Positions 28,978 through 47,468 of a DNA stretch of 64,000 bases are shown piece after piece. Each line of letters starts with the position of its first letter. Positions within the stretch are counted from its first letter, which is position 1. Both the position numbers and the translations under genes were made by a program. The stretch comes from Verrucomicrobiia bacterium. Its GTDB lineage: Bacteria > Verrucomicrobiota > Verrucomicrobiia > Limisphaerales > DASXHY01. The stretch is from contig DASPIL010000031.1 of assembly GCA_035629175.1 (NCBI GenBank), forward strand, positions 1-64,000. The letters are read 5' to 3'. The notes beneath the pieces are model-generated. The model saw only the letters and a program-made list of their open reading frames with translations, ran no database searches and was not told where the DNA came from.

Positions 28978-30147
28978 AACCGACCATTCGCTCGTGCCTC
29001 ACGGGCGAGAGGGTAAAGCGGTTTCCAGGTATTCGTATTGGTCAGTGTCCATGCGAGGCTAACACGTTGCCCTGAATTCGCGACAATTCGCGACAATTTG
29101 CGCAAACCCGTTTTGTCTTTCCCGATCTGCCTCCAGAATTCAAAGAAGTTGCCTCACGGGAAGAGCACAAGATGCGCGAAGAGGAGACGTTTAACAGGAG
29201 CAAGCAGAGGCAGCAGAGAAAGGGCAGAGGAAGATGTTTCCGAATCCGCGTTCATCCGTCTCCATCCGTGATTAGATTTTCATTTTCACTGCTATCTTTT
29301 CGTGTGGTTCGTGTGGTTCGTGTGGTTCGTGTGGTTCGTGTGGTTCGTGGTTGAACTTCCTCCCTTCAATTCGCGCAATTCGTGTCAACCCGTTTTGTCT
29401 TTCCCGATCTGCCTCAGAATTCAAAGAAGTTGCCTCACGGGAAGGGCACAAGACGCGCGAAGAGAAGACGTTTAACAGGAGGACGCAGAGGCAGCAGAGA
29501 AAGGGCAAAGGAAGCTGTTTCCGAATCCGCGTTCATCCGTCTCCATCCGTGATTAGATTTTCATCTCCACTGCTGTCTTTCGTGTGGTTCGTGTGATTCG
29601 TGGTTGAACTTCCTCTCTTCAATTCGCGCAATCCGCGTAGACCCGTTTTGTCTTTCCCGATCTGCCTCCAGAATTCAAAGAAGTTGCCTCACGGGAAGGG
29701 CACAAGACGCGCGAAGAGAAAACGTTTAACAGGAGCAAGCAGAGGCAGCAGAGAAAGGGCAAAGGAAGCTGTTTGCGAATCCGTGTTCATCCGTCTCCAT
29801 CCGTGATTAGATTTTCATTTTCACTGCTATCTTTTCGTGTGGTTCGTGTGGTTCGTGGTTGAACTTCCTCTCTTCCAATCCGCATACCCCTCTCTCCAAC
29901 TCTCTCCCCGCTCGCGCCTTACGGGGCGAGAGGGTCAAGCGGTTTACAGATCGCAGTGATCTCACCCACACTTGATTACGCCTATCCGGTGCCAATCCGT
30001 GTCTCAACTGGTTTTCAGCTTGTCAGGCATTCCTCTGCTACCTCCATTTGCTCCTGTTAAACCGGAGTTGCGTCCTCGAACGGCCGATTCATTCGGAGTG
30101 AAGGACCCCATAGTAAGGATGCTTGTGCTTCTGCACGCTATCTGGTC
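28978..30147. other. Gene-free block of tandem and dispersed repeats
   Basis: More than 1.1 kb without a believable gene. It is dominated by the tandem ~255-bp units, flanked on each side by a short dispersed motif (gggcgagagggt-aagcggttt near 28.99-29.02 kb and 29.92-29.95 kb). Frames here translate to simple HEPHEP-type or QRQQRKG-type strings and are rejected as genes. Confidence 0.8.
29080..29880 (+). repeat. Three tandem copies of a ~255-bp unit
   Basis: Units begin at about 29080, 29366 and 29619. Each contains, in order, cccgttttgtctttcccgat, gttgcctcacgggaag, acgtttaacaggag, gcagcagagaaagggca and ttcatccgtctccatccgtg. Each ends in a short array of the 9-bp unit gtgtggttc: about five copies in the first unit and two in each of the others. 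The units differ by scattered substitutions and the copy number of the 9-bp array, so they are not recent identical duplicates. Confidence 0.9.
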
Positions 30148-36996: not shown

Positions 36997-37025
36997 AAGG
37001 GCCGGAGCAATCCGGCCCTTTTTTT
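36997..37025. terminator. Rho-independent terminator after VPDSG-CTERM gene 3
   Basis: A perfect 10-bp stem, aagggccgga / tccggccctt, with loop GCAA is followed by seven Ts in all. It lies 35 bases after the stop and may also serve the leftward gene pair ending at 37112. Confidence 0.9.
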
Positions 37026-37111
37026 ATGTACGACTCTTTAGGCGGGTTGATCCCCGGGGGAGATTGGTTGCGCCTGCCATCCTTCGCCGACAACAAACGG
37101 TCAACGGCGCT

Positions 37112-37435
37112 TCAACCTTTGATACTACTGAGTCTGTGATCCAACGCCTGCTCGAAGCTGACCAATTCGCGAATGAGCGAGTTGTAGCGAGAATAGGCAT
37201 CACCGTCCTCCCGCTTGAGTTGTGCGTAAAGGGCATGTTCCGGGTCGGCAATAAACGCGAGCCCCTCGCAATCAAATATTCCGGTGCTGCAAAGGCGGGT
37301 CCTCGCGATGCTCACGAGACAGGCCGGAATCGAGAATTGATCCTGCTTCAAGTCCTCAAATCCTTTCCGGACAAGATGTTCCCCAGGAAGACCGCCGCAA
37401 ATGTCGTCTGTGGTGTTCACGTTCGGAGAATGCAA
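37112..37435 (-). CDS. Small protein coupled to nucleotidyltransferase gene
   Basis: The 107-residue product starts with a TTG one base after the stop of the upstream nucleotidyltransferase gene, so translation is probably coupled. It contains DPEHALYAQLKREDGDAYSRYNSLIRELVSFEQALD, a helical, charged region, and a Cys-rich middle (ACLVSIARTRLCSTGIFDC). No signal peptide is seen. Small partners next to DUF6036-type nucleotidyltransferases suggest a toxin-antitoxin-like pair, but this protein is not recognised. An internal GTG is an alternative start. Confidence 0.6.
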   Translation of the reverse strand: MHSPNVNTTDDICGGLPGEHLVRKGFEDLKQDQFSIPACLVSIARTRLCSTGIFDCEGLAFIADPEHALYAQLKREDGDAYSRYNSLIRELVSFEQALDHRLSSIKG

Positions 37436-37436
37436 G

Positions 37437-37964
37437 CTAAGGATTGGATTCGCAAAAGCGGCGCACTCGAGTCCGATACATATCGGCGTCGATGCCAGGA
37501 TAACGAATCAATGACGATTCGATTTCCCGGAACAACTCCAGCAACCGTCGCTTTTCCACCAGAGCGTGTTTGATGAAGTTGGCCACATCTGCGAGGTCTC
37601 TGTCATGGCCGCGTTGCAGTTTGGCGAGAGCTTGTCCGTAGGGATCGTAGTGGTAGAACTCGACGTCGCGATGTCGGGCGATGAAGAGACTTCGGTCGCG
37701 CCATTTGGGCAGGGCCGGAATGAAGTCATCCGGGCTGGCCAGTTCAACGTTAACGTCGAGTTTGTTTTTGAGATAAGCGATGGCCTCGAAGAACCGTAAC
37801 GGTTCCGGATCGGACTTGAGGTCAATGTCGATCGTTGACGACCTCCACCCGTGCAGCAGCGCGGTGGCGCCGCCAGTAAAGTAGATCCGTCCAGGGCTCT
37901 GGACTTCCGCTGAGAGGGCGGCCATAAACTGTTCCAGCTTTGGCTTGGTCGTTTCAGAGCGCAT
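37437..37964 (-). CDS. DUF6036-like nucleotidyltransferase
   Basis: The 175-residue product (ATG at 37964; a TTG four codons upstream is possible) has the nucleotidyltransferase-fold signature GGATALLHGWR at about residues 31-41, followed by STIDIDL (44-49). This is the GG-x-A...R-x-T-x-D-x-D pattern of AbiEii/DUF6036 and related proteins, and the two aspartates would bind metal. The second half is helical with RGHDRDLADV, also typical. Such proteins can be toxins or antitoxins in type IV-like or MNT systems. The gene is followed at 1-bp distance by a small gene and stands isolated among repeats and VPDSG-CTERM genes. Confidence 0.78.
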   Translation of the reverse strand: MRSETTKPKLEQFMAALSAEVQSPGRIYFTGGATALLHGWRSSTIDIDLKSDPEPLRFFEAIAYLKNKLDVNVELASPDDFIPALPKWRDRSLFIARHRDVEFYHYDPYGQALAKLQRGHDRDLADVANFIKHALVEKRRLLELFREIESSLIRYPGIDADMYRTRVRRFCESNP

Positions 37965-38393
37965 GTGCCGGTTCAAAAATGCGCGGATAAAACGGAGTTG
38001 GCAACACTATCCGGGCACCAACTGGGACCACGGGACCGCGGGACCGCGGGACCGCGGGACCACGGGACTACGGGACTGCGGGACTGCGGGACTGCGGGAC
38101 TGCGGGACTGCGAGACTGCGAGACTGATGGTGGACGGATGGGCGGAGCGCGGCCCAATGCTGAAATGCTAAAAGCTGAAATGCCGGAAACCGAGCACCGA
38201 AGATCGAATTGGGATCGGGCCACACAATTTCAGACCTCTCAACCCTCAACCGCTCAACCAACGGCCAATAAAGGACTACTGGACTACAGGTCCACGGGAC
38301 TACGGGACAACTAAGGACGGTAGACTGTGGATGGCTCTCCCAACATGCAACGACGGACAACTGACTGACAGCGGACACCCGGATAAAACCGAA
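37965..38393. other. Gene-free region with minisatellites
   Basis: About 430 bp with no supportable gene. It holds the 13-unit 8-bp minisatellite, an agctgaaa-type tract at 38157-38185, and a region of gactac/gacaac-like degenerate repeats near 38275-38320. Confidence 0.7.
38024..38127 (+). repeat. 8-bp minisatellite, 13 tandem units (gggactgc type)
   Basis: Thirteen contiguous 8-bp units: gggaccac, three gggaccgc, gggaccac, gggactac, five gggactgc, gagactgc and gagactga. The gradual change of variant along the array is what unit-by-unit slippage or unequal exchange would leave. Confidence 0.95.
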
Positions 38394-38419
38394 GAAGGCC
38401 GGGATTTCTCCCGGCCTTC
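38394..38419 (-). terminator. Rho-independent terminator after VPDSG-CTERM gene 4
   Basis: An 11-bp stem, gaaggccggga / tcccggccttc, with a 4-base loop; on the minus strand it is followed by TTCGGTTTTATCC. It lies about 37 bases beyond the stop of the leftward gene. Confidence 0.75.
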
Positions 38420-38455
38420 GACTAAAACACCGAAATGAGTTTGGTCGGTTTCTGA

Positions 38456-39022
38456 TTAGGCCGCCATTTTGCGACGGATCAGGCCGAGGCCTGACAGCGC
38501 AGCACCGAGCAGCATCACCGTCGTTCCACCATCCGGAACGCCAGCGGCTGTTCCAGATTGAAACGAGAAGGTAACAGAGTCAGGGCTCGTAACGCCGATG
38601 GTCCATGTTCCGCTCGTAAGATCGTATCCAGGAGCGGAGATTGTGCCGGTTCCAAACAACGTCAAGCCGGTTCCGGTTTGAGAAGTAATGGAGACGGAGC
38701 TCAGCGTGAATGTGATGCCGTTAGCAACCCACAGTGGGCTCACGGGACTCGGCGACAGGACAGGGCTAAACTGGAAGTCGGTGAACAGGACCGTTGAGAA
38801 CGACGGAATCAGGGCTCCGAGAGTGCCTGAACCAGTCACTGCAAACCCGCTGACGCCAGCATTGAAGTCCAAGCCGGTCGCGACGCTCACGGGAACGGTA
38901 GCATTCGCTGCATTAACGGTTCGCACAGGTCCGGCGAAATCAACGGTTCCGTCGATTTGTGCCGCATGGGCGCTCAAGCTGACCAACGCTGCGGTTGCTG
39001 CAATTAAAAGTGCTTTTTTCAT
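38456..39022 (-). CDS. VPDSG-CTERM sorting-domain protein 4
   Basis: The 188-residue product has a signal peptide (MKKALLIAATAALVSLSAHA, cleavage after AHA), a short beta-rich domain poor in charge, and a C-terminal VPDGGTTVMLLGAALSGLGL helix with basic IRRKMAA. It is the smallest of the four and the one with a VPDGG instead of VPDAG core. The MKKA start is preceded by no clear Shine-Dalgarno sequence within the predicted leader. It is a likely substrate of the exosortase at 43.7 kb. Confidence 0.9.
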   Translation of the reverse strand: MKKALLIAATAALVSLSAHAAQIDGTVDFAGPVRTVNAANATVPVSVATGLDFNAGVSGFAVTGSGTLGALIPSFSTVLFTDFQFSPVLSPSPVSPLWVANGITFTLSSVSITSQTGTGLTLFGTGTISAPGYDLTSGTWTIGVTSPDSVTFSFQSGTAAGVPDGGTTVMLLGAALSGLGLIRRKMAA

Positions 39023-39560
39023 AATATTTTGTTCTTAGTGTTTCGGTGTTCTCCTCCCATCTAGCGTCTGCCGTGCCAAGGTTTTAGACAGAGGATCCTG
39101 GCGGCGTAAGTTGCTGCATTGCAATGAGATCGAGTTGCGCTATGGAGAATCGCTCAGACAATGGAAATCGGGGTTTGTAAAGGCAGCCGACAAACGGACG
39201 GAGGGACTTGCGGATAAAAGCTGAAACGCTAAAAAGCTGAAATGCTGAAATCGGGAACCATCAACACTCGAACTACGGGGAAACGGAGGGTAGCCGAGGA
39301 CCGACGACTGAGGACGGAGGACTGAGGACGGAGGACTGAGGACTGAGGACGGGACGACGGGACGAGGGGACTACGGGACTACAGGACGAGGGGATGTCGA
39401 GGGGGGAATGAAGGATCGGAGGATCACGAGGGAAGGGTGGAAAGTGGCGAGGGAGGGCGAACTGCGGAAGATGGAGGATAGAGCGTGGAGGGCGGGCAGG
39501 GGTCAAAAGCCAAAAAGCTGAAAAGCTGAAAAGCTGAAAGGCTGAGCGACGGGGCCCACG
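39023..39560. other. Gene-free region with promoter and short repeats
   Basis: The first 60 bases carry the promoter of VPDSG-CTERM gene 4. The rest is simple repeats: agctgaaa-type tracts at 39217-39262 and 39508-39545, and ggactgaggac-type tracts at 39301-39395. No gene is supported. Confidence 0.75.
39062..39079 (-). promoter_or_regulatory. Sigma-54 (-24/-12) promoter candidate for VPDSG-CTERM gene 4
   Basis: On the minus strand TTGGCACGgcagACGCTA has GG at 39077-39076 and GC at 39065-39064 with 10 bases between, and a perfect TGGCACG upstream half. The predicted start near 39052 gives a leader of about 30 bases before the ATG at 39022. Confidence 0.7.
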
Positions 39561-42500
39561 CTACTTTTTTTCGGCGACGGATGTTTCCAAAGTCCGCTTT
39601 GCCTCTTCAGCGAGGTTCGGAGACAAGTTCAGCGCTAATGCCTTGCGCAATGAATCCTGACACTCGGTGCGCTGCTTCAGGCTGTGTTGCGCCATTCCCA
39701 AGTAAAAGAAGACTTCACCGTCCTGGGGGCGTTTTAGCGACGATTCCTTCAGCAAAGAGGCGGCCCGGGAATAATCCTTCCGCGCGTAGCTCACGATACC
39801 CAGGGTCTTCGCGGCTTCAGGATCGCTCGGAAATGCGGTCCGTGCCTTCGCAGCAAATTCATTGGCCTTTGCAGAGCCAGGATTCTCGGCCGTATAGAGT
39901 TGCGCCAATTCTTTCGTCGCCGGCAGGAATCCAGGATATTGCTTCAGGATCTGCTCGAAGGTTTGAATTGCCGGAACAGATTCCCCGCGTTCCCGTTGCG
40001 CCATTCCCTTCAACGCCATCGCTGCAAGGTGATCGGGCTGATCTTTCAAAACTTCGTTAACCCGAGGCAAGGACTGCGTCACGCCGCCTTTTCCGTTCAA
40101 TGACGCGGTGAGTTCAGCAAATAGCTTCGCTTCGTCCGCGCCGCTGAATCCCGGATTGGCCTCGAGCGCCTGGCGCATGGTGGTCTCTGCATTCGCAACG
40201 CGGCCGACGCTGAGTTGTGCCCATGCGAGGTCATACAGGACCTGCGAGTCACGCGGGAGTCGCTGCGATGCCTGTTGCAACAGGCTCAAGGCCCACGGAT
40301 GGTCGCCGGAACGAAAGACTTCGCGTCCCAACGCGGCCGCCACTTGTGCATCGCCCGGCGACACTTTGTAGGTCTCCTTCAGGAGGTTCACCGCCTTGTC
40401 ACGGGAGTCTGGATTCGCGGCATACAGCAACGCGAGCGGCTTCATGAGGGACGGGTTCCGCGGATTTTTCTGCAAGGCGTCCTCATAAAGAGCCACTGCT
40501 TTCGTGGTCGCTCCAGCGTGTTGATACAACTCGCCCAGCTTGATCAGCGTGACCAGATCTGACGGTTGTTGGCGAACTCGTTCCTCAAAGGCTGCTATGG
40601 TGCTCGCATCGGATTTGCTCGTGTCGAGGTTCAATGCCGCAAGTCGCTCTTGTGCGTCTTGCCTCCCAGCAAAGTCCTTGTCGAGGGCCAGGGCCCGTTG
40701 AAGTACCGTTTTCGCTTGGGTCGGTTGGTTCAGCATGTAATAGGTCAAACCAAGGTGGTACTGGATTTCCGGATCCTGAACGAGGGCGTCGGCGCTCTGC
40801 TGCAGAAATGAAAGTGCACCCGAGAAGTCACCTCGCAGGAACAAAACCCACCCGAGCGTATCGGCGACGAAAGGATCTGCCGGAGCGAGGTCGCGCGCAC
40901 GGCGGGCTGCGGCAATGGCTTTGTCCAACTGTGGCAGTTTCGAAGAATACAAATGCGCGATATTGTTCAAAGCGGGGCTGAACTTGGGGTTGATTTCGAG
41001 CACGCGCTCGTAGGTGGCCACCGCTGCCTGGTAATCACCGGTATCCGACTGAATCACGCCCATTTGAAACAAAGCAGCGGCGTCGTTCGGATTTTGCTCA
41101 ATGCTATTCTGCAGTTGTTTCAGTGCCTTGGCCGATTCCCCGGAATCGACGTAGAGTTTCGCCAGCAGCAGGTAGGGCGCGGAATATTCGGGCTGAATGG
41201 CAATCGCCTGTTGCAAGGCGGCTTCAACTTTGTTGGTTTCATTGAGCGCCCAGTGAACGCGTGCTAATAACACGGGGAGGACCGGCGATTTTGGCCACCG
41301 CTGCATCTTCTCTTGAATACGCGTGAGCGCCCGGCTGGGTGCATTATCGGAAAGATCCAGGTTGACCAATTGTTCGAAGGGTTGAAGGGCTTCCGGAGCC
41401 AGTTGAACTGCACGCTCGAATTCGCGGCGGGCGTCGGCAGATTTTTTCTGGCTGAGGTAAATGCTCCCGATCAGCATCGGGACCTGGGCATTGTCCGGGA
41501 ACAGCCGTCGCAGTTGCTCGCCGCGTCGCAGCGCCTGTTCGGGTTCTCCATTGCGCATGTAGGCGTTGATCAACAGCAAGTGAGCCTCGACAAGCCCGGG
41601 CTTCCGTTCCAGCAACCGCGTCAGCGATGTAATGGCCACCGTGGGATTCTCGCGCCGAATGTCCAGCTGTGCCTGCAGCAAGAGTGCCTCTTCGTTTTCT
41701 GGGTCAAGCACCAGGGACTGCGCCAAAGCTTTCGCTGCGGCAACATCGTTTCCTTTGAGAAGATAGGCGGCCGCAAGGTAAAAGTGCACCTTCGGCGCCT
41801 TGGGAAAGTCTACCGCCATTTTATCGAATGCGGCGATCGCCATCTCGGGTTCCTGCTGTGCGAGCTTCAATCGCCCGTCCAGCAGCGCCGCGTTAAAATC
41901 CTCCGGAGCGACCGTGCGCGCGCGGGACACGGCACGCGCACAGTTTGTGAGTTGATTCTGGGAGAGTTCCAGTTCGCCCAATGCGACCCAGGCGGGCAGA
42001 TAGTCAGGAGTCGCTTCAGTGATCGATGTGAGAATTTGTCGTCCCTGCTCCACCTGCCCCGCCTTGGCGAGAAGATCGGCATAGCGCACGGGGAAGTTGG
42101 CACGCGGCGGAGCTGATTCCGAAGCCCGTTTGAACGCGCTGAGTGCGTTGGTGACATCCTGATGGGCGAGATGCCAGGATCCCAGGGCCATTTGCGCAGG
42201 TCCGAATCTGGGATCCGCCGCCGCCGCGCGGGTCAACGTATGAGAAACGGATTGTGTGTTTCCCGCCCGGGCCTGAATAACCGCGAGAGCCGTCAGGAGT
42301 GGCGCGGTATCACCAGCGGTTTTTCGCGCTTGTTCCAGTGCCTCCGTGGCTGCTGCCAGGTGATTTGTGGTTCGGACCGCCTCGGCCATCACAATAGCGG
42401 CTCCGGCGTTGGTGGGATTCGAACGAAGAAGATTTAACGATCCGTCGAAAGCAGCATTAGCGTTGCCGACGGCGAGTTGTACCTCCGCTGCCTTCAACTG

Positions 42501-42800
42501 AATTTCCGGGTCGGCCGGGTGGGTTTCGGCTGCACGTGTGAGAAGGGGGTAGGCGCGTGCAATGCGGCCGCTCGAATGATAGATCAAGGCGAGTTGCTTG
42601 ATGGCATGCGTGTTTTTCCCGTCCAGGCGCAATGCATTGATATACTCAATCTCCGCCTCGCTATATTTGCCTGCGCCGAAGTACTGATCCGCCCTTTGCA
42701 GATGCCGGTCTCCACGCGCGGCCTTGGAGCACCCGGTGGAAACTCCCATGAGCCCGACGATGAGCGGCAACAGCAGGAACCGATGCATGAAGTCAAACAT
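39561..42800 (-). CDS. Giant TPR-repeat lipoprotein (PrsT-like), paralogue 2
   Basis: From the ATG at 42800 the product has 1,079 residues; a start 16 codons upstream is possible but precedes the lipoprotein signal. The signal ends with lipobox GVSTGC, and the rest is TPR repeats, for example YFGAGKYSEAEIEYINALRL and LGWVLFLRGDFSGALSFLQQ. It shares with paralogue 1 the STGCSK anchor and the order of repeats, so the two arose by duplication. PrsT-type proteins accompany exosortase/EPS loci. A sigma-70-like promoter is seen just upstream, unlike the sigma-54-type promoters of the sorting substrates. Confidence 0.88.
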   Translation of the reverse strand: MFDFMHRFLLLPLIVGLMGVSTGCSKAARGDRHLQRADQYFGAGKYSEAEIEYINALRLDGKNTHAIKQLALIYHSSGRIARAYPLLTRAAETHPADPEIQLKAAEVQLAVGNANAAFDGSLNLLRSNPTNAGAAIVMAEAVRTTNHLAAATEALEQARKTAGDTAPLLTALAVIQARAGNTQSVSHTLTRAAAADPRFGPAQMALGSWHLAHQDVTNALSAFKRASESAPPRANFPVRYADLLAKAGQVEQGRQILTSITEATPDYLPAWVALGELELSQNQLTNCARAVSRARTVAPEDFNAALLDGRLKLAQQEPEMAIAAFDKMAVDFPKAPKVHFYLAAAYLLKGNDVAAAKALAQSLVLDPENEEALLLQAQLDIRRENPTVAITSLTRLLERKPGLVEAHLLLINAYMRNGEPEQALRRGEQLRRLFPDNAQVPMLIGSIYLSQKKSADARREFERAVQLAPEALQPFEQLVNLDLSDNAPSRALTRIQEKMQRWPKSPVLPVLLARVHWALNETNKVEAALQQAIAIQPEYSAPYLLLAKLYVDSGESAKALKQLQNSIEQNPNDAAALFQMGVIQSDTGDYQAAVATYERVLEINPKFSPALNNIAHLYSSKLPQLDKAIAAARRARDLAPADPFVADTLGWVLFLRGDFSGALSFLQQSADALVQDPEIQYHLGLTYYMLNQPTQAKTVLQRALALDKDFAGRQDAQERLAALNLDTSKSDASTIAAFEERVRQQPSDLVTLIKLGELYQHAGATTKAVALYEDALQKNPRNPSLMKPLALLYAANPDSRDKAVNLLKETYKVSPGDAQVAAALGREVFRSGDHPWALSLLQQASQRLPRDSQVLYDLAWAQLSVGRVANAETTMRQALEANPGFSGADEAKLFAELTASLNGKGGVTQSLPRVNEVLKDQPDHLAAMALKGMAQRERGESVPAIQTFEQILKQYPGFLPATKELAQLYTAENPGSAKANEFAAKARTAFPSDPEAAKTLGIVSYARKDYSRAASLLKESSLKRPQDGEVFFYLGMAQHSLKQRTECQDSLRKALALNLSPNLAEEAKRTLETSVAEKK

Positions 42801-42822
42801 AGGTGGTTGATGAGTTGTCGCG

Positions 42823-42850
42823 AGTATAAGGTGCCGCGAGGCGTCCACAA
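42823..42850 (-). promoter_or_regulatory. Sigma-70-like promoter candidate for TPR paralogue 2
   Basis: On the minus strand TTGTGG (42850-42845) and TATACT (42828-42823) are separated by 16 bases. The predicted start near 42816 fits translation from the ATG at 42800. Confidence 0.4.
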
Positions 42851-43696
42851 GCGCCTTTCTTTGGGCATCAGTCGTCGCGGAGGAAAGGACTGAAGGACGA
42901 AAGGACCAAGGGACTAAAGGACTAAGGGACTAAAGGACTAAGGGACTAAAGACTGGGGACAGAGGGGGCCAAAAGCTGAAACGCTCAAATGCTAAAAGCT
43001 GAAACTCCAAAGGATCAACATTCAACATCCCCTTGCCTGCGACGTGAGGAGCGGGAGGGGGGCTGGGGGAGCGGGTGGTTTGGTCTGGTCCCTCCTTCGA
43101 CCTTTGAAACTGAGAAAGAGTGCCTCCTCTCCTCGGCCCTCTCGTCCACTCCGAGTGGATCCGAGTGGAAGAGAGGGGGGTGACGGGAAACTGCACGGAC
43201 AGGGCCAAAAGCTAAAATGCTAAAAGCTGAAACTCCGAAGGATCAACATTCAACCTCCCCTCGCCTGCGACGTGAGGAGCGGGAGAGGGGCTGGGGAAGA
43301 GGGTGTTTTGATCCGTTCCCTCCTTCGACCTTTGAAGCTGAGAAAGGGCGCCTCCTCTCCCCGGCCCTCTCCTCCACTCCCGAGTGGAAGAGAGGGGGTG
43401 TGACGGGAAACCGCACGGACAGGGGCCGAAAGCTGAAGAGCTGAAAGAGCAGGGACTAAAGGACGACGGACTACGGGACGACGGAGGACTGAGGACTGAC
43501 GACGGAGGACTGAGGACTGAGGACTGAGGACGGCCAAATGCTGAAAAGCTAAAAGGCTAAAAAGCTGAAATCTCCGACTCAACAGGGCCACGACGGATCT
43601 TTCCACCTTCTATCCTCTGTTCTCTAATCTCTAATCTCTATCGTCCGGCTCCGATTCCTCCATCATCTGACATCCATTATCGACAGGCAGTCCCCT
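42851..43696. repeat. Gene-free repeat block between TPR paralogue 2 and xrtC
   Basis: The block holds an 8-bp ggactaag/a array (about 42909-42952), two tandem ~230-bp units, a ggactgaggac-type array (about 43451-43533), and agctgaaa-type tracts. A T/C-rich stretch (ctctgttctctaatctctaa) lies at about 43613-43650. No frame here resembles a protein. Confidence 0.85.
42962..43426 (+). repeat. Tandem duplication of a ~230-bp unit
   Basis: Unit 1 (about 42962-43199) and unit 2 (about 43200-43426) share ccaaaagct, aaaagctgaaactcc, ggatcaacattcaac, tgcgacgtgaggagcgggag, tccctccttcgacctttgaa and gacgggaaac-gcacggac in the same order. Differences are point changes and small indels. The inner G/C-rich part belongs to the dispersed family also seen in inverted form at 147-315. 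Confidence 0.9.
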
Positions 43697-43705
43697 TTCA
43701 GCGTT

Positions 43706-44671
43706 TCAGCTTTTTAGCGTTTCAGCGTTTGGCCTGAGCCCGCGCCTCTCCCAGCGCCGGAGGAGCCAGAGGATCAGAAAGAACGGAATGAGCGACAGCG
43801 CGAAGAAAACGGGTCCGCCTCGCCTGTGCAGCGCCGAGTGTATGAAGTTGGGATCTACATGCACGCAGAGCATCGCCAGTACAAAGATGCGGAATGCGTT
43901 CCTGACAATGCCCAACCCGAGGACCAGGGCTCCGAAGAACAACTTGCTCGACGTCCGCCGGAGGAAGAAATATCCGGCAAGCAAACCTGTCATGAACAGC
44001 ACCAGGCTCGATCGGATGCCACTGCATTCGGGCGCCACCTGAAGGCTAATGTTCGGAAGCGTGAACAGAGTTCCATCGCGCAGGATGGGCGTTCCGGAGA
44101 GTTGAATGAACCAGTGTGACACGTCCGCGGAACCGTGCTGGAGTGCTGCTTCCAACCAATGTTCCACCGCCTGAGGAAAGGGAACCATGAAAATCATGAA
44201 CACAAGCGGGAACATCATTTTTTGGCAGAATCCCCGCCCCAGGCTGTATAAGCATGCACTCCAAACCAGGCAAACGAAGCTCAACGTCAGCCACGCAATT
44301 CGATCCTGCGTCGGTGCGTTCCAACCGGTTTTCAGCCGGACAAAATAAGCGATGAGCACAGTGACCGCGGCCACGCATGGAATCAAAAACATCCGATCGC
44401 CGCTATGCAGCGCGGGCCAACAATCCCGGCTGGTGCGAATCAGATACACCGTGATCGCAGGCACCAGAAGCACGTGGGAAAAGAGGTCTTTTCCGAACGA
44501 GAACCTAGCCAGCTCATAAAGAGGCAGAATATACGCAACGACGAGAACACAGATTATACCTGCCAGGAGTTTCCAAGGGTCGGAACCCCAAGTTGAGACT
44601 GGCAGTGGAACTGCGCGAGGGGTGGCGTCGTTTCCAGAACGTCGCGTTAAATTGGCCATAAATGGACGCAT
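43706..44671 (-). CDS. xrtC: Exosortase, VPDSG-CTERM-specific type (XrtC-like)
   Basis: Exosortases are polytopic membrane cysteine proteases/transpeptidases that cut C-terminal sorting signals on exported proteins. The 321-residue product has about eight membrane helices and the family's catalytic triad: C216 in APECSGIRSS, R261 in RNAFRIF, H282 in LHRRGG. The symbol is given because the four nearby substrates carry VPDAG/VPDGG signals, the class served by XrtC; sequence alone does not prove the subtype. It is the last gene of the leftward EPS cluster, 15 bp after the beta-barrel gene. Its last codons (NAETLKS, stop) consist of the agctgaaa-type minisatellite. An ATG four codons in is an alternative start. 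Confidence 0.9.
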   Translation of the reverse strand: MRPFMANLTRRSGNDATPRAVPLPVSTWGSDPWKLLAGIICVLVVAYILPLYELARFSFGKDLFSHVLLVPAITVYLIRTSRDCWPALHSGDRMFLIPCVAAVTVLIAYFVRLKTGWNAPTQDRIAWLTLSFVCLVWSACLYSLGRGFCQKMMFPLVFMIFMVPFPQAVEHWLEAALQHGSADVSHWFIQLSGTPILRDGTLFTLPNISLQVAPECSGIRSSLVLFMTGLLAGYFFLRRTSSKLFFGALVLGLGIVRNAFRIFVLAMLCVHVDPNFIHSALHRRGGPVFFALSLIPFFLILWLLRRWERRGLRPNAETLKS

Positions 44672-44686
44672 TGCTTCACAGGTGAG

Positions 44687-46054
44687 TCAGTAACCAAAGG
44701 AGAACGAAAACCCTGTCTGGTTGCTGGCGTAATCGAAACCCGAGGAGTTGGAAAGGTTTTCGCTGCGAGCGTAGAAAACTGAAAAACTTCCCCGGCGATA
44801 GACCGCGGTGCTCAACGAGGCACGATACGCGAGATTCTCGTCTTTTCGCGACGTTGACACGGCCGACGTGGTCGCCTCGTAGTCCGTGGTTGTGTAGCTG
44901 GCGCTCATGTTCAAAGCCAGGCGATTGAAGATTTGTTGCGTAAACGTCGCCGTGACCGACGTGTTTTCTGTCACTTGATTCCGAAAAAACGAAGTGCTGA
45001 TATTCCGACTTGCCGCCAGGCCCAATGTCGTTCGTTCTGTCGCAGCATACGACACCGACAAACCAAACAAGGGGTTGATCAGACTTCCTTTGTCGGTATC
45101 GAGGAACTGCCGGATTTCAACTCCGGCGTTCAGCGAAGCGGATAGTTTCTGCGAAAGTCCAAAAGTGATTCTTCCTTGCAGTTGTTCATGAGTCATGTCA
45201 GTGCCGGAACTTACGTCGACGTACCCGGCGCCCACGCCTCCGGCCAGCGAAATTCGAGGAGCGAGATGGTAATTCAACCAATTCATCGTCGACCAGGAGC
45301 GGCTCCCTCCCTGCGCATCCTCGTAGCCGCTTTGATCGGCGATGCTTTGAGAAACCTGAAGCTGCAGCGACCAGTCGCGACCTATGGCACGCGCCGCTGA
45401 GAGCGAAGTGGAGATATGTTTTTGATCGGTCTGTGTGGCTGTTTCACTGCGAGACTCGGAACTCATGGAAAAGTTCTGGCCCAAAGAAAAACTCCAGATG
45501 TCAAATTGAGCATTGCCGGACAATGACGCTGTATGTTGCAGCCGATCATCCAGTTCCTCGTTCGAGTAAAAGACCAATGAAGGGGTATAGCTTGCAACCC
45601 ATCGTCTTCCGATGTTGATGCTGATGCTCGGGGTGACAGACTGAACAATGGAATCCTCTTGTCGCCCTCCGCGGATCGGCATTCCCGTGCTGTGCGTGAA
45701 AGTGTAGGAAACAGACGGGTGCAAGGTGAACGGGCCCCAGACCAGCGGATTAAAATTGCGCGGTGTACTCGCCGAAGATTCCATCGCGTCGTCAGGGTCA
45801 GCGCCCGGTTCGCGGTCTTCTTCGGGTGCGGGGTCGAAGTTGACTGAAATTGGCGCGTTGACCACGGGTGGCGGAGCCACGAGCACTGGTTGAGCGAGAG
45901 CCCGGGGTAAAGCGAGGATGGTGTAAACCAGGGCTAGCCAGGCGGGATAGCGCGGACCTGGCGCCGATCGTCGAACCTTTCGTCGCAAATTCTGAGAAAC
46001 CGAAACGCGGATCCGCTGATGGGAGGGAAACGTGCGCGAGTGGGGAAGGTTCAT
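44687..46054 (-). CDS. Outer-membrane beta-barrel protein associated with exosortase/EPS locus
   Basis: The 455-residue product has a signal-like hydrophobic segment (residues 39-53, then ALAQ) after an unusually long basic N-terminus, a Pro/Asp/Glu-rich linker, and then alternating amphipathic strands from about residue 100 to the end (LHPSVSYTFTHS, RWVASYTPSLVFYSN, FGLSVSYAATERTTLGLAAS). It ends in an aromatic-rich FSFSFGY, as outer-membrane porins do. It resembles the PEP-CTERM-system beta-barrel family and PF10082-type porins, so it may be the outer-membrane conduit or anchor of the sorting/EPS system. No Shine-Dalgarno sequence precedes the ATG; the N-terminus could be shorter. Confidence 0.82.
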   Translation of the reverse strand: MNLPHSRTFPSHQRIRVSVSQNLRRKVRRSAPGPRYPAWLALVYTILALPRALAQPVLVAPPPVVNAPISVNFDPAPEEDREPGADPDDAMESSASTPRNFNPLVWGPFTLHPSVSYTFTHSTGMPIRGGRQEDSIVQSVTPSISINIGRRWVASYTPSLVFYSNEELDDRLQHTASLSGNAQFDIWSFSLGQNFSMSSESRSETATQTDQKHISTSLSAARAIGRDWSLQLQVSQSIADQSGYEDAQGGSRSWSTMNWLNYHLAPRISLAGGVGAGYVDVSSGTDMTHEQLQGRITFGLSQKLSASLNAGVEIRQFLDTDKGSLINPLFGLSVSYAATERTTLGLAASRNISTSFFRNQVTENTSVTATFTQQIFNRLALNMSASYTTTDYEATTSAVSTSRKDENLAYRASLSTAVYRRGSFSVFYARSENLSNSSGFDYASNQTGFSFSFGY

Positions 46055-46184
46055 GAGGAGGAAAATGGTGAAACGCGGAAACGCTGAAAAGCTAAAACTC
46101 TGGACTGCAGGTTATGGTGCCTCGAGTTCTCCCTCGCGTGCAGCTCTCAGCATTTTAGATTTTAGCGTTTAGATTTTTTCACCG
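46055..46184. repeat. Intergenic agctgaaa-type tracts
   Basis: Between the beta-barrel and dehydrogenase genes lie two short tracts: cgctgaaaagctaaaact at about 46081-46098, and one of the opposite orientation (cattttagattttagcgttt) at about 46151-46170. Confidence 0.7.
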
Positions 46185-47468
46185 TTACGCCTTCCAGACG
46201 CGCGCCTTGCCCGTGATCCCCGCCATGGCGTTGCGTGTATCGACAATGCACGTCGACCAGTCCGACAGTTCCTGGTAGTTCACGTTGGTGTGCTTGGTGG
46301 AGATCAGGACGAGGTCATAGTTTTCAATCGTTTTCTGATCCCAGCCAATGGACTTGGTTCCAGTCCAATGTGCATGCTCGCGCGTTGGACGGATGACGGG
46401 AACATACGGATCGTAATAGTCGATCGTAGCGCCGCGCTGTTTGAGCATTTCCATGAGCACATAACTGGGCGACTCGCGTTCATCATCGACATCGGCCTTG
46501 TAGGCGAGCCCGATTACCAGGATTCGGCTGCCGTTAACTGGTTTCCTGGCTTCGTTCAACGCCTCGGCAACACGATGGACAACGTATTCCGGCATCGCCG
46601 AATTGATCTCCCCCGCGAGCTCGATGAAACGTGTGTTTTGCCCGTATTCGCGCGCTTTCCAGGCCAGGTAGAACGGATCGATTGGAATGCAATGTCCGCC
46701 GAGACCGGGACCGGGATAAAACGGCATGAAGCCGAAGGGCTTGGTTTTCGCTGCGTTGATGACGTCCCAGATATCGATGCCCATCGCGGTGTAGACAACC
46801 TTCAATTCATTCACCAGCGCGATGTTTACCCCTCGAAAAATATTCTCCAGCAACTTGGTCGCTTCGGCCACCCGGCAGGAAGAAACCGGAACGAGAGTCT
46901 TGATCGCCTTGGAATAGAGTTCCCTGGTTTTTTCAAGACAGGCGGGTGTGTAGCCGCCGATCACTTTGGGAATGTCCGCCACTTTGCTTTCGAAATTACC
47001 GGGGTCCTCGCGTTCCGGAGAAAATGCCAGATGGAAATCCACGCCAGCCTTAAGCTTCGAGGTCTTCTCAAGGACATTCCGAAGGTCTTCGTCGGTAGTG
47101 CCCGGGTAGGTTGTGGATTCGAGCACCACTAGACTGCCTTGCCTCAAATGCGGGGCGATCGTCCGTCCTGTCTCAAGGACATATGAAATGTCGGGCTCGC
47201 GATTCTTGTTCAGCGGGGTCGGAACGCAGATGATCACAGCATCCACTTCGCGGACGCGGTGGAAATCAGTCGTCGCAGAGAAACGGTTCGCCCGGATGCA
47301 CTCGTCAATGTGAGACGTGGCAATGTGCTGGATGTAGCTTTCCGCACGGTTCAGGGAATCGACTTTGGCGCGGTCGATATCGAAGCCAAGCACGGAAACC
47401 CCGGATCGCGCAAATTGCAACGATAGGGGCAAGCCAACAAAACCCAGTCCGACGACTCCAACATTCAT
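46185..47468 (-). CDS. Nucleotide-sugar 6-dehydrogenase (WbpA/WecC/TviB type)
   Basis: The 427-residue product oxidises a UDP-HexNAc (or UDP-hexose) to the uronic acid with two NAD. It shows the NAD-binding GLGFVGLP at 7-14, the catalytic ESTTYPGTT and AEATKLLENIFRGVN segments, and the nucleophile C260 in GLGGHCIPIDP. YKADVDDERESPS marks the C-terminal domain. The SPEREDPGN form and overall length fit UDP-GlcNAc/ManNAc/GalNAc dehydrogenases rather than UDP-glucose dehydrogenase, but the substrate is not certain. It makes an acidic sugar for the surface glycan. Confidence 0.93.
   Translation of the reverse strand: MNVGVVGLGFVGLPLSLQFARSGVSVLGFDIDRAKVDSLNRAESYIQHIATSHIDECIRANRFSATTDFHRVREVDAVIICVPTPLNKNREPDISYVLETGRTIAPHLRQGSLVVLESTTYPGTTDEDLRNVLEKTSKLKAGVDFHLAFSPEREDPGNFESKVADIPKVIGGYTPACLEKTRELYSKAIKTLVPVSSCRVAEATKLLENIFRGVNIALVNELKVVYTAMGIDIWDVINAAKTKPFGFMPFYPGPGLGGHCIPIDPFYLAWKAREYGQNTRFIELAGEINSAMPEYVVHRVAEALNEARKPVNGSRILVIGLAYKADVDDERESPSYVLMEMLKQRGATIDYYDPYVPVIRPTREHAHWTGTKSIGWDQKTIENYDLVLISTKHTNVNYQELSDWSTCIVDTRNAMAGITGKARVWKA

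Follow-up and report, generated by a model that had tools for sequence, protein, structure and literature searches.

Two kinds of described system bear on the locus considered here, a set of short tandem arrays around an exosortase gene in a 64,000-nucleotide stretch (the window; contig DASPIL010000031.1, assembly GCA_035629175.1) of a Verrucomicrobiia bacterium: intervening sequences (IVS) that carry an S23 gene, and intergenic repeats of 7-8 bp. As far as the available portions of the reports go, the 23S rRNA IVS of Coxiella burnetii has a 28-bp stem, is excised by RNase III and contains an S23 open reading frame (ORF) with GACAGAT heptamers ahead of it, their number differing from strain to strain; the S23 gene is prone to decay, the IVS is called a selfish element, and S23 proteins and ribosomal IVSs are without known function (PMC4990558). 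The GGGAATC and GGGGA(C/T)T heptamers of Xanthomonas and Nostoc are intergenic, lie near gene boundaries and are oriented so that, whichever side the nearer gene is on, the G-rich strand points away from it; convergent inverted pairs number 70 and 75 in two Xanthomonas genomes. They were discussed in terms of G-quadruplexes, as 'not generally' associated with mobile elements and of a role not known (PMC4692102). The TAACTGA direct repeats of the Beggiatoaceae are abundant intergenic heptamers near start codons, patchily distributed across phyla and considered possible binding sites of a post-transcriptional regulator, with only one indirect repeat reported (PMC4679880). Repetitive extragenic palindromes (REPs) are palindromes of 20-40 bp (PMC3733652). 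Genes of PF05635, the S23 family, have been flagged in cas loci as an interesting associated function (PMC3936711) and described as coding for Avd-like proteins (PMC10053308).

The analysis indicates, with a probability of about 0.72, that the tracts in the window represent the arms of small selfish elements belonging to the S23 or intervening sequence protein (IVP) type, mostly solo copies without the gene, which was either lost or never present. The element as such is well supported. In its full form it consists of a purine-rich tandem array of 7-8-bp units, an S23 gene (PF05635, a four-helix bundle) and an inverted array, and is inserted at the joint between two protein genes.

Two types of array, A-type (NGCTRAAA)n and B-type (GGGACTAC)n or (GGACTGA)n, enclose S23 genes. 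Three of the ten ORFs among arrays that were run against Pfam belonged to PF05635 (23S_rRNA_IVP), and a profile built from five seeds picked out 16 S23 segments from loci totalling 1.31 Mb, the majority of which had been selected for the arrays they contain. Seven S23 proteins of an A subfamily, from genomes of seven families, had 72-84% amino acid identity, the DNA being mostly less alike than the protein. All seven ORFs were bordered within 200 bp by A arms, one on the + strand to the left and one on the - strand to the right, with a further arm between in four cases, and a truncated eighth member (G150) was flanked in the same way. The three proteins of a B subfamily were 69-79% identical; those in the window's own genome (L086) and in G096 (L148) had B arms on both sides, and the third, in G010, lay between a B arm and a GACTACT array. 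At these loci the S23 subtype pairs with the arm unit, AGCTGAAA arms going with one subfamily and GGGACTAC arms with another, subject to the exceptions given below. Moreover, the window's contig (C31) itself carries an A-type S23 gene at about 76.1-76.5 kb and a B-type S23 gene at about 82.5-82.9 kb, both 30-40 kb past the exosortase. Four more S23 loci adjoined A arrays on contigs named as Akkermansiaceae, Akkermansia and Spartobacteria. No S23 gene was found in loci L338-L383 (276 kb, partly overlapping), which surround FliG and the G165 gene described below and include a few known array loci. The nearest solved structures were 2rld for the A-type protein (E 8e-15) and 2gsc, XCC0516 of Xanthomonas campestris, for the B-type protein (E 9e-25).

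Comparison of relatives indicates that arrays entered conserved gene joints as insertions. The gaps between FliF, FliG and FliH were estimated from tblastn starts in the best 30 of 78 genomes with a FliG match. FliF and FliG were separated by no more than 32 bp in 28 of these, while FliG and FliH overlapped by 14 bp in 24, with values of -1 to 16 bp at the other five joints that were not exceptions. In G091 the two gaps were 92 bp and 120 bp, both with convergent A arrays, which were absent from these joints in the other 29 genomes examined. At the FliG/FliH joint of G091, a copy of the 14-bp overlap of G083, its best match, flanked the insert on each side, with small differences. Since both flanking ORFs must survive, selection favors insertions with such duplications, and the 14-bp duplication is an example of what the process can do, not of what always happens. 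A second case was provided by G165, where two genes with intact ORFs were separated by a 206-bp gap bearing arrays. The same joint measured 4 bp in G109 (in which the downstream protein was about 80% identical), 4 bp in G083, 7 bp in G042, about 9 bp in G131 and 37 bp in G176, all relatives of its genus. A 301-bp FliF/FliG gap in G084 held AAAGCCG/AAATCCG heptamers with convergent CGGATTT arms (L355/L383), a third repeat unit in the architecture of the A-type inserts.

The purine strand of the arrays, read 5' to 3', tended to point away from the nearer gene. This was counted in an unselected set, made up of the G096 array sites together with the sites in other genomes that remained on the list; left out were 18 arrays that lay within predicted ORFs and 21 at the edges of contigs, and genes were called with our own script, which took the longest ORF mechanically as the start. 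Pairs of arrays in the same gap, in 60 unselected loci, were convergent in 15 cases and divergent in none. Within 50 bp of a gene boundary 23 of 28 arrays pointed outward (p = 9e-4), as did 14 of the 15 that lay at most 50 bp from a 3' end. An earlier set of loci gave 21 convergent pairs against one divergent, and 33 of 35 arrays outward within 30 bp in relatives, but was not used as a test because its loci had been fetched after the inverted pairs were noticed. The 22 convergent pairs that were folded gave strong structures, with a median z of -5.15. Convergent pairs were also present within a flagellar operon, between FliF, FliG, FliH and FliI, and three lay in gaps separating divergent genes.

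What appears to be the same anatomy was found on plasmids of other phyla. A tblastn search of plasmids with the two S23 types gave 20 and 19 records, from which 18 loci were picked by hand for spread among cyanobacteria, Chloroflexota, Gemmatimonadota, Bacteroidota and Spirochaetota; for the Gemmatirosa record, which has no annotation, the limits of the S23 gene were set by eye. An array of period 7 or 8 was present in at least one 200-bp flank at all 18 loci and in both flanks at 15, compared with 70 of 2140 control windows (3.3%) taken from five of these plasmids. At 11 of the 18 loci the two flanks had at least three inverted 9-mers in common, versus 3.6% of 2115 control positions, and at 6 of 18 they had at least three direct ones in common, versus 5.0%. 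The joints that held S23 genes included cas6/cas4 and the beta and alpha subunits of ribonucleotide reductase. The latter joint was 497 bp long in Nostoc edaphicum, where an S23 gene lay between (GGGAGTA)n and (TACTCCC)n arms near the stop and start codons; in Calothrix, with a beta subunit 91% identical, the joint was 16 bp to the matching start codon and 40 bp to the annotated one. Similarly, the cas6/cas4 joint was 776 bp with an S23 gene in Anabaena sp. 90 but measured 5, 23 and 36 bp in another three, the longest of these consisting itself of ATTACGA repeats. In Dolichospermum UHCC 0315A, a close relative of Anabaena sp. 90, this joint was 245 bp long (L407 1938-2182) and had no S23 gene and a different inverted repeat, GTTGGGTT...AACCCAAC; the joint seems to have been hit twice. 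The Nostoc edaphicum plasmid also had solo heptamer arrays at L403 13334-13557, 15607-15770 and 16871-16984, apparently convergent pairs with no S23 gene annotated, and these lie inside the control region of the flank-array count.

Within the window, the gaps concerned separate, in order, the genes for a DUF6036 protein, a VPDSG-CTERM protein, a PrsT-like tetratricopeptide repeat (TPR) protein, the exosortase, a BBP2 beta-barrel protein and a UDP-sugar dehydrogenase. The best NCBIfam profile for the exosortase was XrtC, with a score below the XrtC cut-off and above the general exosortase cut-off. The repeat features of the region, with their strands, are as follows.

38031-38126, + strand: B-type (CGGGACTG)n array, 12 copies
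38157-38188, + strand: A-type tract, gap between the DUF6036 and VPDSG-CTERM genes
38273-38308, + strand: degenerate B-type array (GGACTACG)
39216-39250, + strand: A-type tract, gap between the VPDSG-CTERM and PrsT-like TPR genes
39296-39394, + strand: purine-rich 7- and 8-bp arrays (GAGGACT / GACGGGAC)
39505-39547, + strand: A-type tract
42884-42951, + strand: B-type array (AAAGGACT), 8.5 copies
42969-43010, + strand: A-type tract, gap between the PrsT-like and exosortase genes
43204-43240, + strand: A-type tract at an imperfect 250-bp duplication
43425-43450, + strand: A-type tract
43453-43533, + strand: purine-rich 7- and 8-bp arrays (GGACTAAAGGACGAC / GGAGGACTGAGGAC)
43530-43735: hairpin with a long, imperfect stem formed by two arms (z = -5.6 on the + strand and -4.6 on the - strand against dinucleotide shuffles)
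43534-43575, + strand: A-type tract, left, purine-rich arm of this convergent pair
43696-43730, - strand: A-type tract that supplies the right arm of the pair and overlaps the exosortase ORF (43706-44671, - strand) at its 3' end
46067-46100, + strand: A-type tract (left arm), with the BBP2 gene start 12 bp away
46141-46177, - strand: degenerate A-type tract, right arm, adjoining the UDP-sugar dehydrogenase gene (46185-47468, - strand) at its 3' end

All ten A-type tracts of the original prediction were located at the positions it had named, at a density far above chance and, after merging, with eight on the + and two on the - strand. The two-unit pattern GCTRAAANGCTRAAA, allowing two mismatches, matched the window 24 times, 23 of them within 38159-46159, compared with 1.50 +/- 1.17 matches and a maximum of 4 in 100 dinucleotide shuffles. 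The statement that nearly every gap is occupied was borne out: every gap longer than 16 bp within 37976-46185 contained at least one A-type tract, and B-type arrays were present in three of the four tract-bearing gaps, the exception being 46055-46184. The arrays are degenerate, variable in unit and length and mixed in subtype. The tracts had also been said to be absent from the rest of the window. Single AGCTGAAA octamers numbered 18, against 2.1 expected, and six of these lay outside the exosortase region; the claimed absence is therefore valid for arrays, not for single units. Likewise, the placement at gene ends applied to only four of the ten tracts (39509-39547, 43696-43726, 46067-46097 and 46145-46159), which overlapped a gene boundary or lay within 25 bp of one, the nearest boundary to the other six being at least 126 bp away. 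The fold of 46060-46180 had z values of -0.5 and -3.2 on the two strands and the other two stretches folded were between -0.5 and -2.1, so that three of the four showed no strong folding effect on the + strand. Four matches to known RNA families in 37000-47000 had E values up to 1, all far under the gathering scores.

Some further repeats were observed in the window. In the PrsT/exosortase gap a stretch of about 250 bp is directly but imperfectly duplicated (42979-43226 and 43207-43447, 86% identical); inspection by eye showed an A tract and a G/C-rich, hairpin-like stretch in each copy. At 29299-29883 a 254-bp unit containing TTCGTGTGG 9-mers is repeated 2.2 times, and CACGAAT/CACGGAT 9-10-mers were found in many gaps read from the same genome.

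The three-unit pattern, with at most one mismatch, matched the window's 5.4-Mb genome 22 times and its reversed control not at all. The uniform spread that would have spoken against a functional or positional association was not seen, as 16 of the 22 matches fell on the window's 96-kb contig, 1.8% of the genome. Among 196 genomes of the order, 23 had three-unit A-type arrays (the reversed control matched once in all 196) and 12 had B-type arrays. A scan of genome contigs gave at least 80 array loci, 49 of those listed being Verrucomicrobia or Planctomycetes-Verrucomicrobia-Chlamydiae (PVC) by title, with taxon labels for named contigs assigned by us from the record titles. An exosortase lay within 10 kb of 6 of 106 array places among those listed, the window excluded, compared with 1.48 expected (p = 0.004), counted from a hand-typed list with one entry per array cluster. 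The suggested link with exopolysaccharide (EPS) genes thus amounts to a modest enrichment near exosortases and is not a rule. Genes of toxin type (HepT-like, PIN and PemK/MazF) were observed among array-rich loci (L130 6836-7291 and 9815-10252; L125 2700-3029), and variable islands may be where the arrays accumulate. The window's genome also has a dispersed composite module of CACGGAT-type repeats followed by a short A array and then a TTCGCGACCTTCGCG-type stretch, seen wholly or partly at about L086 6410-6490, L087 6190-6340, L089 5170-5300, L090 5310-5380, L091 4920-5080 and 10480-10570, and L092 5120-5220; it may represent a second element family.

Such an element may work in the manner of the ribosomal IVS. 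The arms would pair to form a hairpin, as they do there, and the hairpin, transcribed as part of the host mRNA, would allow the element to be cut out or tolerated with the flanking ORFs unharmed. The likely cutting enzyme would be RNase III, as for the rRNA IVS. The S23 protein would recognize its own type of arm and help to copy the whole element or the arms to other sites, a short stretch of the target being duplicated in the process. Solo pairs could arise by loss of S23 or by S23 acting in trans.

Several other explanations of the arrays were considered. Ordinary microsatellites of 7-8 bp, grown in place by replication slippage in gaps where S23 genes are merely tolerated too, are an unlikely source. 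Slippage would suit the degeneracy of the arrays, their variable units and lengths, their mixed subtypes and the lack of S23 beside most of them, and it has parallels in the strain differences in Coxiella heptamer number (PMC4990558) and in the description of the Xanthomonas and Nostoc heptamers as simple sequence repeats (PMC4692102). It leaves unexplained the 15:0 convergent pairing, the insertion of 92-497 bp into joints where relatives have closely spaced or overlapping genes, the duplicated 14-bp overlap and the presence of one repeat unit per main S23 subtype. REPs, bacterial interspersed mosaic elements (BIMEs) and REP doublets forming hairpins (REPINs) are dispersed, non-autonomous intergenic hairpins, and REPs are linked to Y1 transposases. 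Elements of this kind, or miniature inverted-repeat transposable elements (MITEs), moved by a conventional transposase in trans with S23 as cargo or bystander, are distinctly unlikely here. A REP-like family was nevertheless the nearest of the three guesses in the original prediction, which had also named a binding array and a transcript-end structure: the arrays are dispersed, intergenic and hairpin-forming, but their unit is a direct tandem octamer and not a palindrome, pairing occurs only between opposite arms, and the protein within the arms is S23/IVP. The convergent arms amount to terminal inverted repeats, a MITE-type feature, and intergenic insertion and one target duplication point the same way. 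The arms are common to S23-bearing copies, S23 not being known as a transposase. Against this reading, the S23 subtype pairs with the arm unit, and the inserts of one genome had, by eye, no common internal sequence beyond the arm theme. Y1 transposase genes were present in 164 of the 196 genomes, with and without arrays and far more than the 23 with arrays, so that their presence says little.

Transcription terminators or mRNA-stabilizing hairpins selected at gene ends, with an A-rich 5' arm and a U-rich 3' arm, would account for the strong hairpins, for the outward orientation near 3' ends and for the window hairpin at the 3' end of the exosortase gene. This reading, and with it the suggested transcript-end structure, is weakened by the pairs between genes of one flagellar operon, by the three pairs between divergent genes, where no terminator is needed, and by the 29 genomes that do without an A array at the FliF/FliG/FliH joints; the hairpin of an intrinsic terminator is present, but its position is not specific to transcript ends, and we regard the explanation as very unlikely. 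Least probable of all, and scarcely credible, is that the arrays are footprints of break repair, in which staggered breaks at gene joints had their 3' ends extended with repeats and joined in telomere fashion, S23 not being causal. Extension of 3' ends would yield the outward polarity on both sides, the target duplication and the non-homologous middles. Ku was missing from 18 of the 23 array genomes, the S23 genes in matched arms would need a separate explanation, and we know of no enzyme for repeat extension of break ends in these bacteria. G-quadruplexes are ruled out for A-type arrays, as NGCTRAAA has no run of three G. The B-type unit GGGACTAC has a G run; the lack of one in AGCTGAAA means that quadruplexes are not the common cause of heptamer and octamer repeats.

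A number of observations count against the interpretation of the tracts as arms of S23 elements. Most solo arrays have no S23 gene alongside. The other five of the 16 S23 segments (L144, L138, L318, one in L125 and one in L130) were distant, partial, unmatched or unassigned to type, and one of these, in G013, A-like over 57 residues, had no A arms, which speaks against strict pairing. The S23 loci on plasmids came from matches similar to two S23 types and were not a random choice. Clear target duplication was seen at one joint only: there was none at FliF/FliG in G091, and at three other G091 joints just 5-6 bp were common to both sides by eye, an amount that start and stop codons alone could produce. 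In G187, a sixth relative, the G165-type joint was 253 bp without A arrays and ended in another short repeat, so joints also lengthen by other routes. The polarity was weaker outside the tests described above, with 33 of 53 arrays outward at all distances in the unselected set (p = 0.098), 15 of 22 A arrays in the window's own genome and 23 of 36 B arrays; pairs in the GTDB-named Verrucomicrobia/PVC subset were convergent in 12 cases and divergent in 7, and the other, non-Verrucomicrobial named matches showed no polarity (9 of 19). The tract at 39505-39547 is itself oriented contrary to the outward rule. Neither a transposase nor a reverse transcriptase was found in association with the arrays, Y1_Tnp alone having been searched for. 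Filler synthesis by Ku-dependent non-homologous end joining was rejected, Ku occurring in 5 of 23 array genomes and 23 of 173 others without tracking the arrays. Finally, the window has no S23 remnant (best tblastn E 0.20) and no close relative to supply an empty site for its tracts, and because of this their origin is inferred, from the family likeness and the copies with S23 elsewhere on this contig.

If the arms and S23 do form one element, the function of S23 and the IVS and the role of the heptamers become testable questions, and S23 genes in cas or other operons should be taken as functional partners only with caution. The S23-element reading appears to join two puzzles, the unexplained 7-8-bp repeats of bacteria and the little-understood S23 family. 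A wider proposal has roughly even odds: that 'intervening sequences of mRNA' form a large class of selfish elements in protein-gene joints across phyla, each lineage-specific S23 being matched to its own 7-8-bp unit, with the repeats of Xanthomonas, Nostoc, Beggiatoaceae and others as arms and solo remnants and many S23 genes annotated as associated with CRISPR (clustered regularly interspaced short palindromic repeats) as such elements. No literature linking S23 genes to intergenic heptamer or octamer repeats was found in a search with most subscription journals and all bioRxiv preprints outside its scope, and the exact repeat strings gave 0 matches.

The described systems each share part of this anatomy, within the available portions of their reports. 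The Xanthomonas and Nostoc heptamers have the outward polarity at gene boundaries and, in Xanthomonas, the convergent pairs that were found here in the unselected set; they differ in their G runs, which the A-type unit lacks, and no link to S23 is stated in the available text (PMC4692102). The TAACTGA repeats are alike as intergenic arrays and differ in their reading as regulator sites and in the single indirect repeat. REPs and BIMEs are likewise dispersed intergenic hairpins, whereas the arms here are tandem octamers linked to S23, with no palindrome. The PF05635 genes of cas loci belong to the same family and occupy the same kind of joint, for example beside cas4 and cas6, but are described there as associated with CRISPR or with diversity-generating retroelements (DGRs), and here as parts of elements at gene joints with repeat arms. 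The Coxiella IVS shares the S23 ORF within the insert, the complementary ends that form a long stem and the tandem heptamers before the S23 start, and differs in that the inserts here lie between protein genes, have long tandem arrays as arms and include numerous solo arm pairs. Judged as an IVS, the inserts have the long-stem complementary ends, and the S23 ORF is present in relatives and at two other places on the contig, though not in the window tracts, while none is located in a 16S or 23S rRNA gene. Since the inserts lie between protein-coding genes, the fitting description is that the element works like an IVS, not that it is an rRNA IVS.

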